Shown one piece after another: positions 50,614 through 55,881 of a DNA stretch of 64,000 nt. The DNA comes from Paenibacillus sp. L3-i20 (lineage in GTDB: Bacteria; Bacillota; Bacilli; Paenibacillales; Paenibacillaceae): NCBI RefSeq assembly GCF_022180385.2, contig NZ_BQME02000001.1, forward strand, positions 1,819,678 to 1,883,677. The letters are read 5' to 3'. Within the stretch, counting starts at the first letter, position 1, and each line of letters starts with the position of its first letter. Both the position numbers and the translations under genes were made by a program. The notes below the pieces were generated by a model. That model was not told where the DNA came from, searched no databases, and saw nothing but the letters and a program-made list of their open reading frames with translations.

Positions 50614-52731
50614 TTAACGGCTAAATTCCTTATCAAAGATTTTATCATGGTTCGGATCTACTTCTGGTCCTACAGCATTGGTGTTAAGTATCATAATATG
50701 CTCCCCGCCCAGAGGGCCGCCCACAAGTGTTGAGAATCCGATCGTTCCGCCTGCAGCTGCCCAATAGGACTCCCCATTCGATAGCTTTTTCTCCATAATT
50801 CCTAATCCGAAATTTCCAAAAGGCGAGGGGTGACCTGTCGTCATCTCCTTCATCATCTCGTCATTTAATAATTTTCCGCCTAGTAGGGCGCTCATGAAGG
50901 TTACAAGATCATCCGCAGTTGATACCATATCCCCAGCAGCATTTCCCCACGAAGGGTTGAACTCTGTGAAGTCATACAGCTTCATTGATCTATCTATGTT
51001 ATACCCTCTAGCATGATCCCCTGGGATATGCGGATTACTGCCGCGCACAGATGTCCCTGTAAGTTCCAACGGGTCGATAAACCGTTTCTTTATTTGCTCT
51101 GCATACGTTTCTCCTGTTACTTTTTCAATAATAAGACCAGCGAGCACGGTATTTGTATTTGAGTAGTCAAAATTCGTTCCTGGCGCAAATACAGGTGGTT
51201 TTGCCAACCCTTTGTCTACGAGCTCTTTGGTTGTATAGTAACGATATGGATTTTGAGGTATTGTAATGTCTCGGAAATCGAGATCCGTATAGCTAGCAAT
51301 TCCGCTGCGATGATTTAATAATTGAGAAATCAGAACTTTGTTACCGTCATATCCATTACCCTTAACGACACCTGGGAGCCATTTTTCTACAGAGTCATCC
51401 AAGTTTAACTTCTTCTCCTGAGCTAACTGCAATATTACGGCAGCAACAAACGTCTTTGTGACGCTTCCGACTCGGAAAGAAAAGTGAGGTTCCATTGGAT
51501 ATGAATCTTCCATACTAGCTAGACCTGAAGCATAAGACCATCTTTCTCCGTTCTGTAGTCCTCCTGCCACTATTCCCGGTATATACTTGCTTTTTACCGA
51601 TTCATCGATTAGATTTTTGATTTCGTTTCGATTCGCTTCTCCTGAAAATTCCGCTGATTGAATGCTCGTTAGATGAGGTACCGGATTACCTAGCGCATTT
51701 ATATTTATCGAAATGACATGATTACCATCCTTGGTACCGCCTGCAAAATTAGCAAATCCCGGAATGCCGCCGCCATGCCCCCATATGGTGACGCCATTTG
51801 GCAACGTTACGTCATGCAGACCTAGCCCGTAATTCCCGATTGGTGTTTCAACAGTAGTCATCATTTCCTTCATAAGCGTAGGCTTCAATAACTTCCCACC
51901 CAGTAATGCACGGAAAAATGTTGTCATATCGTTGCCAGTCGAGATCATTTCCCCTGCTGCTCCGGTAAACGAAGGATTAAGTTTGGTAATATCGACTAAT
52001 GTACCATTCACCTCAATGTACCCACTTGCATGTTGTTTAGGGATAATGGTTGAGCTGCCGGGAAATGATGTCTCTTTAAGCCCAAGCGGCTCAATAATTC
52101 TTTTTTTAATCTGCTTCGCATATGTCTCTCCTGTGGCCTTCTGGATAATGAGCCCCATAATAACTGTATTCGTATTTGAATAATGCCAACCTTTGACTGG
52201 TTTTTTCTTTAATCCCATAGTAATGAGCTGTTCGACGGAATAATTTTGAGTAGGGTTCTTGATTAGTTTTTGTTTGAGATCGTCATCTAAGTAGTCTGCA
52301 ATTCCACTTGTATGATTTAATAACTGACGAATTGTAATTTTATTGCCGTCATGCCCATTACCCTTAACGATACCCGGGAGCCACTTCTCTACCATATCAT
52401 CGAGACTTAATTTCTTCTCCGAAGCGAGCTGCAAAACAACCGTTGCAACGAATGTTTTTGTCGTACTGCCGATTCGGAAATAGTAGTCATCTTCTAACTT
52501 ATGATTACTTTTTATATTAGCTTCGCCCGAAGCATAAGACCAACTCTTATCACCCTTCTTCACGGATACGATTACACCCGGTACATTTTTGCTGTTTGCG
52601 GCTGTGTCGATGGCCTGTCGGGTTGGAATTCCACTCGCATTTACATAACTATGGGCTGGCAGTGCGAGGGTGCTGATTAACAAGGCGGATAAAGTAAGTC
52701 TCAGTCCTTTTTTGATAGTGAATTGTTTCAT
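50614..52731 (-). CDS. Secreted tandem beta-lactamase-fold serine hydrolase (two domains in one chain)
   Basis: 705 residues with a signal peptide (cleavage near residue 27-32). Two homologous class-C-like/D,D-peptidase domains in tandem: domain 1 about 35-355, with S89-T-T-K92 (FRIGSTTKTFVA), YSNTN, and WGHGGGIPGFANF; domain 2 about 370-700, with FRVGSVTKTFVA, YSNTN, and at the third motif YWAAAGGTIGFSTLVGG. The H-x-G motif of domain 1 is therefore replaced by AAGG in domain 2. The domains share long stretches (KKLxLDDxVEKWLPGxVKGNG), so this is a gene duplication and fusion. Likely a D-alanyl-D-alanine carboxypeptidase or esterase. Confidence 0.88.
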   Translation of the reverse strand: MKQFTIKKGLRLTLSALLISTLALPAHSYVNASGIPTRQAIDTAANSKNVPGVIVSVKKGDKSWSYASGEANIKSNHKLEDDYYFRIGSTTKTFVATVVLQLASEKKLSLDDMVEKWLPGIVKGNGHDGNKITIRQLLNHTSGIADYLDDDLKQKLIKNPTQNYSVEQLITMGLKKKPVKGWHYSNTNTVIMGLIIQKATGETYAKQIKKRIIEPLGLKETSFPGSSTIIPKQHASGYIEVNGTLVDITKLNPSFTGAAGEMISTGNDMTTFFRALLGGKLLKPTLMKEMMTTVETPIGNYGLGLHDVTLPNGVTIWGHGGGIPGFANFAGGTKDGNHVISININALGNPVPHLTSIQSAEFSGEANRNEIKNLIDESVKSKYIPGIVAGGLQNGERWSYASGLASMEDSYPMEPHFSFRVGSVTKTFVAAVILQLAQEKKLNLDDSVEKWLPGVVKGNGYDGNKVLISQLLNHRSGIASYTDLDFRDITIPQNPYRYYTTKELVDKGLAKPPVFAPGTNFDYSNTNTVLAGLIIEKVTGETYAEQIKKRFIDPLELTGTSVRGSNPHIPGDHARGYNIDRSMKLYDFTEFNPSWGNAAGDMVSTADDLVTFMSALLGGKLLNDEMMKEMTTGHPSPFGNFGLGIMEKKLSNGESYWAAAGGTIGFSTLVGGPLGGEHIMILNTNAVGPEVDPNHDKIFDKEFSR

Positions 52732-52996
52732 CTTTCATCGCTCCTATACTTTTCGAATGTGTTGTTTCACCCCCTTAATGTAAAGCATATGTTGTTAGAA
52801 ATGACATTGACGAAACCGCATCAGTTTTTGATGACATCGCCTTAAATCCTGTCAACTAATCGGACTGACGAATTGTCATCTGTCAGGAGTGACAATGTAT
52901 CTGGAGCTTGACGGAAACGGAAAAAATGGTGCATGATGAATCAGAATTACTTGATTCTTCACGTATCTTTTTAACATTGGCAGGTGTACATAGAAC
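52732..52996. promoter_or_regulatory. Divergent promoter region with TGACA/TGTCA repeats
   Basis: ATTGTCA (52872-52878) and TGACAAT (52890-52896) form a 7-bp inverted repeat with an 11-nt spacer; more TGACA or TGTCA words lie to the left (near 52801, 52831, 52849) and between the arms. This may be a binding site for the kinase-regulator fusion encoded at 52997. Confidence 0.4.
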
Positions 52997-54778
52997 ATGA
53001 TAGATATAATAAAAAAGTGGTTTTGGTATGATTGGATGGCAGTTGGTTTACGAACAATATGGTTGTTCATTGTCGCCATTGCTAGTTTTGTGAACCCTTC
53101 ACAAGCCGTTGCACCGGTTTGGACAATCATCTTTGTCTTATTGGTTTACCTCATTCCGCTTATGGTCAAATATAGGAGTGAAAACAAATACCTAGTTGTC
53201 GAAGTGATATCGGCGGGTTTCTTTTATCTCTACATTGCCTATGTAGCGTCAGATTTGCTTTGGTCCTTTGCTATATTTGTCCTTATTATCGGCTTAGCTA
53301 GCAATCGAAAAACGTATGTATGGACGGGTATTAGCGGTGTTCTTATCTTCCCTATCTTGAATGGTTGGATTTCGAATCAGCTTCCATTAGAGTTTGTTGT
53401 TAGTTGCAGTATCAGTTTTATTATAGGATTTGCGTTTAATGTACTCATTCAATCTCACAATCAAGCTGGAATTATTCAAGAGCAGAAGCAATTACTGGAA
53501 CAGCATCTTTCAAAGATAGAAGAGCTCACCCTTAAGGAGGAGCGGAATAGGCTGTCACATGAGTTGCATGATACGATCGGTCATTCGCTAACTTCATTGA
53601 TTGTTGGTGTAGAGTCACTTCGATCGTCCCTCCCTGCCTCACAGATTGAACGGGTCGATACTCTTGTTTCAATAGGACAGCGCAGTCTAGATAATATCCG
53701 AAAGCATTTGCACCAGCTCTCGGATACTCCATCAAATCATTCCTTAAGTGAATCAATTCAGCAATTAACACAAGAGTTTATGAAGTCTACAGGTATTACC
53801 GTTCATTTCCGTGTGATCGGTAGTGAGACACTTGTTATGCAGAAAATGAATTTTTGCCTGTATCGCTGTCTTCAAGAATCGCTTACGAATGCAGTTCGTC
53901 ACGGTCAAGCGAGTAAGGTGTCTGTAGATCTGTATTTCGATAGTCAGCATCTTCGGCTGCAGATAGAGGATAATGGAAGTGGAATGGAGACAAGCCAGTT
54001 CGGATTTGGTCTGCAAGGTATGAAGGAACGACTTAATCTGTTGCATGGTTCGTTGTCTGTTCATTCTGGACCGCAGCAAGGAACTATCGTCATCTGTACG
54101 ATTCCTTTGCAGATTGAGCTTGTACAAGGTACTATCCGTTTGCTCATTGTAGACGATCAAGTCATCATAGCGGATAGTTTAAAGCATATTTTGGATCAGC
54201 ATACAGACTTTCTTGTTGTTGGTACAGCTGGAAATGGGCATGACGCTTTAACACTTTGTGAGCAATCCCAACCAGATATTGTGCTGATGGATGTTCATAT
54301 GCAGGGAATGAATGGGCTTGAAGCGTTACAAGAGATGAAGAGACGTTGGTCTACCATGAAGATTGTGCTTATGACGACGTTTGAGGATACGAAGCAGGCA
54401 GCAACAGCACTGGAGAATGGCGTTGAAGGATATATGTTAAAGTCGATTCATCCGAAAGAGATGATTGAAGCAATGAAACTCATCTATAACGGAGGAACTT
54501 GGATTGATCAGACAGTTGCTGCGAGAGTATTTGAAGAGATGAAACGTCAGCGCGAGGTACTAGAGAAGATCGGCCCTAATGATCCGTATGGGCTAACGAA
54601 AAGAGATAGGGAGATTCTAGAGCAATTGTCTAATGGGATGCGATACAAGTCGATTGCTGCCAATCTCTTTTTGACGGAGGGGACAGTACGTAACTATTGT
54701 TCGACGCTTTACTCGAAGCTCGGCGTTAGCAACCGTGAGGAAGCGGTTGAACGTGCTCGATCAGAGAATCTATTATAA
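52997..54778 (+). CDS. Histidine kinase and NarL-type response regulator fused in one chain
   Basis: 593 residues. Residues 1-155: about five membrane helices. Residues 160-375: HisKA_3 dimerisation domain with EERNRLSHELHDTIGH (phospho-His about 191) and ATPase domain (NAVRHGQASKV, DNGSGM, GFGLQGMKERL). The chain continues without a stop through IPLQIELVQGTIRLLIVDDQ into a receiver domain (phospho-Asp in VLMDVHMQGMNG) and a C-terminal LuxR-type HTH (LTKRDREILEQLSNGMRYKSIA). Normally these are two proteins (LiaS/DesK-like kinase and its regulator). Here the DNA-binding domain would be tethered to the membrane unless cleaved. It is divergent from the tandem hydrolase gene. Weak CAGGTG ribosome binding site. 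Confidence 0.9.
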   Translation: MIDIIKKWFWYDWMAVGLRTIWLFIVAIASFVNPSQAVAPVWTIIFVLLVYLIPLMVKYRSENKYLVVEVISAGFFYLYIAYVASDLLWSFAIFVLIIGLASNRKTYVWTGISGVLIFPILNGWISNQLPLEFVVSCSISFIIGFAFNVLIQSHNQAGIIQEQKQLLEQHLSKIEELTLKEERNRLSHELHDTIGHSLTSLIVGVESLRSSLPASQIERVDTLVSIGQRSLDNIRKHLHQLSDTPSNHSLSESIQQLTQEFMKSTGITVHFRVIGSETLVMQKMNFCLYRCLQESLTNAVRHGQASKVSVDLYFDSQHLRLQIEDNGSGMETSQFGFGLQGMKERLNLLHGSLSVHSGPQQGTIVICTIPLQIELVQGTIRLLIVDDQVIIADSLKHILDQHTDFLVVGTAGNGHDALTLCEQSQPDIVLMDVHMQGMNGLEALQEMKRRWSTMKIVLMTTFEDTKQAATALENGVEGYMLKSIHPKEMIEAMKLIYNGGTWIDQTVAARVFEEMKRQREVLEKIGPNDPYGLTKRDREILEQLSNGMRYKSIAANLFLTEGTVRNYCSTLYSKLGVSNREEAVERARSENLL

Positions 54779-55146: not shown

Positions 55147-55881
55147 ATGTCTTATATGTCTAGTGTTTCGAATTCTGCTAGAGGGTCCAAAGGGATGACT
55201 TCATACTCTGTGCAGGACAAGAAAATACAGCAACTGAATAAAGAACTGGCAAGAATGCAGGAAGAGTTAGGCAATGTGAATAACAACCAAGATCTAGACC
55301 CTAAGTTGAAGATGGAACGAGTAAAAGCATTAACGAGCAGTATTCAGGAAATTGAATCTAGAATCTCCGAGAGTAAGATGGAGGATGTTAAAAAGAAAGT
55401 TTCTGAGTCACAATCGACTGATTCGCGACCTTCTCGTTCAAAATCTGAACATGATCCCGATCTTGCTATCATTGTTGAGAAGAGTGCTTCTCTATCTCAG
55501 CTAAATAAAATGGCTGGTCAACGAACTAAGACGGAGGGTGAAATTAAAACCCTTGAGGGTGGCGTTCGACTTGACCGAACAAACTTGGAATCAGGATCAT
55601 CCAACGATTCAGGAAGATCAGAGATGCTTCAAAATGCTGAAAACACAGTATTCAAGCTGAAGCGTGAAATGGTGCAAGAAAAACAGGATCAACTTAAAGT
55701 CACGGATCAGAAAATGAGTGAGCTTGTCTCATCGATAAATGAACCTGTTGAGGGTGGAGATAAGCCTGCTAACATAGAGGAAACAGCCCCTACAAATGCT
55801 GAAAATGTAGGCAACCCTTCGGGTACGAAGGAACAGAAAGTGAAGGACCGAGCCTCAACTACTATAGATATTAGGGTATAG
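55147..55881 (+). CDS. Coiled-coil hydrophilic protein of unknown function
   Basis: 244 residues, no signal peptide or membrane helix, highly charged. Predicted coiled-coil segments: residues 25-80 (KKIQQLNKELARMQEELG and KMERVKALTSSIQEIESRI) and 165-210 (KLKREMVQEKQDQLKVTDQKMSELVSS). The central and C-terminal parts are Ser/Asn/Pro-rich and disordered. The first segment resembles FlxA-like small coiled-coil proteins, but I would not name it. Strong AGGAGGA ribosome binding site. Monocistronic with a strong terminator. Confidence 0.7.
   Translation: MSYMSSVSNSARGSKGMTSYSVQDKKIQQLNKELARMQEELGNVNNNQDLDPKLKMERVKALTSSIQEIESRISESKMEDVKKKVSESQSTDSRPSRSKSEHDPDLAIIVEKSASLSQLNKMAGQRTKTEGEIKTLEGGVRLDRTNLESGSSNDSGRSEMLQNAENTVFKLKREMVQEKQDQLKVTDQKMSELVSSINEPVEGGDKPANIEETAPTNAENVGNPSGTKEQKVKDRASTTIDIRV

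Follow-up and report, generated by a model that had tools for sequence, protein, structure and literature searches.

The DNA analysed here (the window) is a 64,000-nucleotide stretch of the genome of Paenibacillus sp. L3-i20 (contig NZ_BQME02000001.1), to which all coordinates refer unless a locus is named; the loci of relatives are designated by L numbers. The features of interest are a gene that joins a sensor kinase to a response regulator, a divergently transcribed peptidase gene and the region between them:

50614–52731, minus strand: divergent tandem S12-type serine peptidase, 705 aa, likely target (PF00144 in two stretches, PDB match, conserved neighbour).
52832–52836, no strand: further conserved TGACA half-site, part of GATGACATC and on the divergent gene's side (alignment, scan).
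52850–52870, no strand: candidate operator inverted repeat 1, TGTCA-N11-TGACG (alignment, repeat scan).
52874–52894, no strand: second inverted repeat of the candidate operator, TGTCA-N11-TGACA, at 24 bases from the first (alignment, scan).
52908–52937, plus strand: likely promoter of the fusion gene, TTGACG-N18-CATGAT (CTTGAC-N17..20-GCATGAT in 28 of 30 close orthologues).
52997–54778, plus strand: fused sensor kinase–response regulator, 593 aa (frame, Pfam, fused relatives).
52997–53449, plus strand: N-terminal membrane region, about six predicted helices, residues 1–151 (hydropathy and structure model).
53540–53725, plus strand: HisKA_3, phosphoacceptor His191 at 53567–53569 (Pfam).
53858–54112, plus strand: HATPase_c (Pfam).
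54104–54133, plus strand: 10-residue linker (residues 370–379), last ATPase strand to first receiver strand (alignment, structure model).
54143–54475, plus strand: receiver domain, phosphoacceptor Asp432 at 54290–54292 (Pfam).
54593–54751, plus strand: LuxR/GerE helix-turn-helix (HTH) (Pfam).

The fusion gene is one uninterrupted frame of 593 codons, and the Pfam domains of its product follow one another in the order HisKA_3 (residues 182–243), HATPase_c (288–372), Response_reg (383–493) and GerE (533–585). The initial annotation had described a kinase and a DNA-binding regulator in a single chain with no stop between them, and this is borne out by the single frame, by the presence of all the domains and by 77 distinct fused relatives. 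Residues 1–181 are without a Pfam match at E ≤ 0.001. Residues 1–151 are largely hydrophobic, with hydropathy peaks grouped into five stretches (14–32, 38–56, 66–84, 83–101 and 133–151), and the structure model adds a sixth membrane helix at 107–125. In this model the loops between the predicted membrane helices are short and the last of these helices appears to continue into the kinase dimerisation helix. The model (pTM 0.33) gives the domains, while the arrangement between them is not trustworthy; in a fold search carried out with it, the best 50 rows were taken up by response regulators already known, by DesK and by the hybrid kinase ShkA. At the join, about 9–10 residues separate the last ATPase strand of the model (362–370) from the first receiver strand (380–385), and the linker measures 10 residues in 69 of the 77 fused members (11 in five, 9 in two, 12 in one), so that the six or so residues first proposed for it were too few. 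Linker residues 373–378 have a model confidence under 50 and, among the close orthologues, the linker is the least conserved part of the sequence (0.66, against 0.78 in the membrane part and 0.86–0.90 in the ATPase, receiver and HTH domains). The gene after the fusion (55147–55881) encodes a FlxA-like protein, with a Pfam match below the cut-off, and gives no sign of membership of the system.

The fusion is genuine and has been conserved. The same genome has three more fused genes, with identities of 58, 52 and 42%; within the genus, 42 of 51 genomes have a match at E ≤ 1e-40, fused and split architectures being pooled. In a survey of the order that scored at most three candidates per genome, a match at E ≤ 1e-70 was obtained in 95 of the 344 genomes sampled, and a stop is present in seven rows among the matches listed. 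Across the phylum, four of 398 genomes match at the level of the order search, namely the own genome, two of the same family and a distant one interrupted by a stop. The named orthologues belong to Paenibacillus and Brevibacillus, apart from two records, of which one bears the label Peribacillus and the other Bacillus. The 77 distinct fused proteins were obtained from the fetched loci, not from every row of the order-wide search, after the removal of duplicates (57 to 42 in one alignment) and of broken or partial members that failed the filter (L010/L051, L053, L082, L083, L084 and L085). The order-wide search also showed members with other sensors, in which the alignment does not begin before about residue 150; one of them was fetched, L149, and failed the filter. 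The same fusion, looked for in relatives as a check, has thus been found in these 77 proteins and in the three paralogues, and a missed stop is excluded.

The peptidases of family S12 are characterised by motifs of the SxxK, YxN and HxG type. In the product of the divergent gene, whose N-terminus resembles a signal peptide when judged by eye, SxxK and YxN are found in both halves, and the third motif reads GHGGG in the first half and AAGGT in the second, against H(A/S)GGT in 19 of 31 S12 neighbours. At the closest orthologue, L056, the S12 protein has a single domain and 411 aa; it shares 91% identity with the second half of the tandem protein and has the same AAGGT. The nearest PDB entry to the divergent product is the alkaline D-peptidase 4y7p (E 4e-107), followed by a DD-carboxypeptidase and an S12 peptidase, in agreement with its earlier description as a cell-wall-type hydrolase. 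An S-layer domain also occurs in two scanned S12 proteins, L040 and L042.

The S12 gene is divergent and within 310 bp of the fusion gene in 28 of 30 close orthologues (the exceptions being L057 and L071); L059, one of the 28, has an S12 gene broken into pieces. Among 47 more distant fused members, an S12 gene lies within 1300 bp in 23 and a PF13796 Sensor gene within 300 bp in 27, at least one of the two being present in 33, both in 17 and neither in 14; these neighbourhood counts, like those of palindromes given below, refer to 75 mutually related loci with limited flanks. The own genome contains 27 PF00144 matches, several of them being parts (halves or pieces) of the same gene; of its three PF13796 genes, two adjoin fused paralogues. 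A stand-alone gene for a PF13796 “Sensor” membrane protein accompanies fused regulators (L040:6193–6780, L078:5287–5955, L039:8974–9594), with its own GTCATATGAC-type site. A separate observation concerns the branch of L044, L045 and L046, where the divergent neighbour is another gene, of carbonic anhydrase type (Pfam) in L045 and of similar size in L044 and L046.

In the window, nine TGACA/TGTCA half-sites occur in the 300 bases upstream of the fusion gene, against 2.2 expected, and none of 300 shuffles reaches this number. When the upstream regions of 25 close orthologues are aligned (L071 was left out), the half-sites are found in a fixed register. Of 26 upstream regions, 25 of which were aligned for motif discovery, 22 contain at least one perfect repeat, 11 contain two and four contain none (L057, L060, L069 and L072). 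Four close members stood outside the motif definition: two have both repeats perfect and one has a single perfect repeat (L115, L116 and L117), and L113 has N10 spacing. The tandem operator is present in a single copy in the 5.3 Mb genome, even with 3 mismatches; a lone TGTCA-N11-TGACR lacks specificity, with 12 forward matches in the genome and 8 reverse ones, against 4 and 9 for the control. The suggestion that these repeats could be the target of the fusion, at first a guess, is strengthened by this phylogenetic footprint and by the single-copy tandem. On the peptidase side, no clear −35/−10 pair was recognised by eye in the upstream alignment.

The window-type repeat was found upstream of one of 16 distant members (L044), and the search then led to a palindrome. 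Many of the distant members carry TGTCATATGACA or a close variant, with the same half-site, between the S12 and Sensor genes; this type of palindrome precedes the Sensor gene whether the latter lies upstream or downstream of the fusion gene, and it is present near the start of 23 of 28 Sensor genes. As for the other five, L039 has CGTCATATGACG, L125 has TGTCACATGACA, the copy in L126 falls within a gene call that is too long, and none was found in L124 and L138. Over the 942,726 bp of the fused loci there are 34 palindromes against 0.37 expected, and 30 of the 34 lie within 350 bp of the start of an S12, Sensor or fusion gene; among eight control palindromes, seven have 0–2 copies and TGATCATGATCA has 12. 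The palindrome is absent from 23 split-system loci (117,551 bp) and from loci L087–L109 (254,117 bp), and none was found next to the fusion genes of the close orthologues themselves. The own genome has three YGTCATATGACR sites, two of them beside fused paralogues, and a single copy of the longer clade operator, which lies at the C2:936106 paralogue. The third YGTCATATGACR site (C1:919133–919144) adjoins none of the four fused genes and may be a further target or a chance occurrence. In Brevibacillus loci, a second S12 gene (L073:1788, L075:1781) has the distant-type palindrome upstream, which suggests a target apart from the fusion gene. The operator architectures of the close and distant members differ, an N11 tandem versus an N2 palindrome, and this difference was counted against the interpretation preferred below.

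The position of the repeats between both genes would also suit a fusion that represses the peptidase gene together with its own, the signal lifting this repression, as would the location of the palindrome near the S12 start in some distant members (8 bases from it in L040, where the called start is probably too far upstream). However, in all 24 close orthologues with both elements, the repeats are upstream of the −35 of the fusion gene and never over it, a placement typical of activators; moreover, the nearest regulators in the PDB include VraR and DesR, which are transcription activators, and repression seems rather unlikely. The distance from the repeat end to the −35 falls into three classes, 11–14 bases in seven of these orthologues, 40–47 in 13 and 62–65 in four, and this spread was counted against the preferred interpretation.

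A quick maximum-likelihood tree of 98 rows, in which long branches were flagged and from which L082 was left out, places the 77 fused members on one side of one branch and 21 split pairs on the opposite side (SH-aLRT 91), and because all 77 lie together with this support a single origin of the fused family is suggested. In the nearest split relatives, L054 and L055, the kinase and regulator genes overlap by 14 bases, with the regulator out of frame, and in split relatives the regulator has its own strong ribosome site (about −9). Two-gene relatives with an identical junction had been named in the initial annotation as a finding that would speak against the fusion; two-gene relatives do exist in L054 and L055, but their junction differs in the overlap, in the ribosome site and in the frame. 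An out-of-frame ATG is located eight bases before the receiver in 32 of the 77 fused genes, and the split relatives start nine bases before it. This ATG could be a fossil start codon, compatible with a change of frame by one base, but codon usage alone could produce it and it has been given no weight.

The region of the join also bears on the idea that the fusion is a precursor, from which a soluble receiver–HTH protein is freed by proteolysis, or which is bypassed through an internal start. In the window protein an in-frame TTG is found at residue 382; among the 77 fused genes, 40 have an in-frame ATG, GTG or TTG within 12 codons before the receiver (5 left out), and in eight an in-frame start near the join (residues 365–400, window numbering) scores −6.9 or better, as well as the median true start. 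To this may be added the low model confidence and low sequence conservation of the linker, and a CAAX-type protease gene that adjoins one distant member, L052. Nevertheless, fused members as a rule are without a ribosome site near the join comparable to that of the split regulators, the best energy of in-frame starts having a median of −2.7, whereas the true starts have −6.9 and the split pairs about −9, and the window gene scores −4.0 near the join against −9.3 at its own start. Furthermore, an ATG immediately precedes the receiver in 7 listed members and the length of the linker stays within 9–12 residues. A precursor role is thus considered quite improbable; the chain would remain uncleaved, and kinase and regulator would be held at a 1:1 stoichiometry, as had been proposed at the outset.

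The residues expected for phosphotransfer are kept in most of the 77 fused proteins: H191 in 75, N298 in 76, D386 in 77, D387 in 74, D432 in 72, T461 in 76 and K482 in 77. D432 is replaced by Glu in five members (L086, L113, L066, L069 and L074) and H191 by Asn in two (L071 and L116), while L052 is without several active-site residues. Given the five D432E and two H191N members, phosphotransfer is, to judge from the sequences, not universal in the family. These same replacements might indicate that phosphotransfer is not the main signal, and that a membrane signal is relayed mechanically via the kinase dimer to the tethered pair of HTH domains: both H191N members keep the repeats (L071 has no S12 neighbour), and L066, a D432E member, has in addition a gap of five residues close to the end of its ATPase domain. 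However, the active-site residues are retained in the window protein and in most members, and a mechanical relay as the main signal is regarded as very unlikely. Finally, a sequencing or assembly error that joined two genes, as a small frame change would do in the nearest split relatives with their 14-base out-of-frame overlap, is ruled out for practical purposes by 77 distinct fused proteins in many assemblies and by three paralogues in the same genome.

The interpretation that we favour, and judge to be probable, is that of a local membrane-tethered switch, composed of a DesK-type kinase and a NarL/LuxR-type regulator, which acts on the adjacent peptidase gene and on itself. A signal in or at the membrane would alter the kinase dimer; inside the dimer, a phosphoryl group would then cross the linker of about 10 residues and move from His191 to Asp432, and the pair of HTH domains, which the kinase dimer keeps at the membrane, would bind the two tandem inverted repeats TGTCA-N11-TGACR. 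As a result, transcription on both sides, of the peptidase gene and of the fusion gene, would change and most likely rise. Since the genome has a single copy of the tandem operator, the fusion probably serves mainly this one locus. The link with an S12 peptidase suggests that the signal is perhaps a D-amino-acid peptide, such as a non-ribosomal antibiotic, or else cell-wall stress or wall fragments. According to passages of one report, a D-stereospecific peptidase activity in a Bacillus culture supernatant, due to an enzyme not identified there, cleaves gramicidin A, and family S12 includes the resistance peptidase BogQ (PMC9541196). If the peptidase described here destroys D-amino-acid peptides, the locus would represent an inducible defence of soil bacteria against non-ribosomal antibiotics. 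A wider conjecture, speculative and rather doubtful, is that the order harbours a series of “one protein, one operator” switches, insulated by their tethers, in which each fused paralogue acts at its own locus on a near-unique operator, and that the branches with Asp432Glu or His191Asn have become mechanical and dropped phosphotransfer.

With the fused family, the union of a sensor kinase and its transcription factor in one predicted membrane protein is found in a lineage distant from Bacteroides. Its small size, the single-copy candidate operator, the one adjacent candidate target, the natural phosphosite variants and the two-gene relatives are useful traits, which make it possible to test by what means a factor tethered to the membrane reaches its DNA, and how the fusion affects signalling and insulation. 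No description of the family was found among the titles and abstracts listed from open-licence PMC literature on the regulator and the peptidase, which does not show it to be unpublished.

Fusions of a kinase, a regulator and a DNA-binding domain are already known, and the hybrid two-component systems (HTCS) of Bacteroides typically combine an AraC-type HTH with a HisKA kinase, in the place of which the fusion has GerE and HisKA_3. Like the fusion, the HTCS unite a membrane kinase, a receiver and a DNA-binding domain in one chain, and in both cases the tether should bring the DNA-binding domains together as a pair and keep paralogues insulated from one another. As the kinase dimer of the HTCS already pairs these domains, a paper on the HTCS notes that binding must be restrained by interdomain contacts (PMC11253607), a problem that, by analogy, would also apply to the Paenibacillus fusion. 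In contrast to the large extracytoplasmic Y_Y_Y-type sensor domain of the HTCS, named in PMC10269533, the fusion has six short predicted membrane helices and no Pfam sensor domain; its conserved neighbours are S12 peptidase and Sensor genes rather than polysaccharide loci, and its lineage is that of Paenibacillus and Brevibacillus rather than Bacteroides. A passage of PMC5320581 mentions a small number of hybrid two-component regulators from other Firmicutes (Roseburia/E. rectale). The predicted membrane segments, two-component domains and DNA-binding domain of the fusion fit the hybrid transmembrane transcription regulators outlined in passages of PMC10269533. These are characterised there as recent and not conserved at the level of genus, class or phylum (PMC10269533), whereas the fused family is spread through an order, with a single origin on the quick tree.

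From the perspective of classical systems, the C-terminal part corresponds to a NarL/FixJ regulator, a receiver followed by a GerE HTH with the D, D, D, T and K residues, but kinase and regulator are separate polypeptides in a NarL/FixJ pair and one chain here. The best solved relatives are NarL, DesR and VraR for the regulator and DesK for the kinase, with LiaR by fold, and the DesK–DesR, VraS–VraR and LiaR-type systems consist of two separate proteins. In comparison with the alkaline D-peptidase 4y7p and the DD-carboxypeptidases of family S12, the divergent product is distinguished by its tandem duplication and by AAGGT in its second half. Compared with the Bacteroides type, the fused family has another kinase, another sensor, another HTH, other neighbours and another lineage, and compared with the description of hybrid regulators in PMC10269533 it has a greater breadth.
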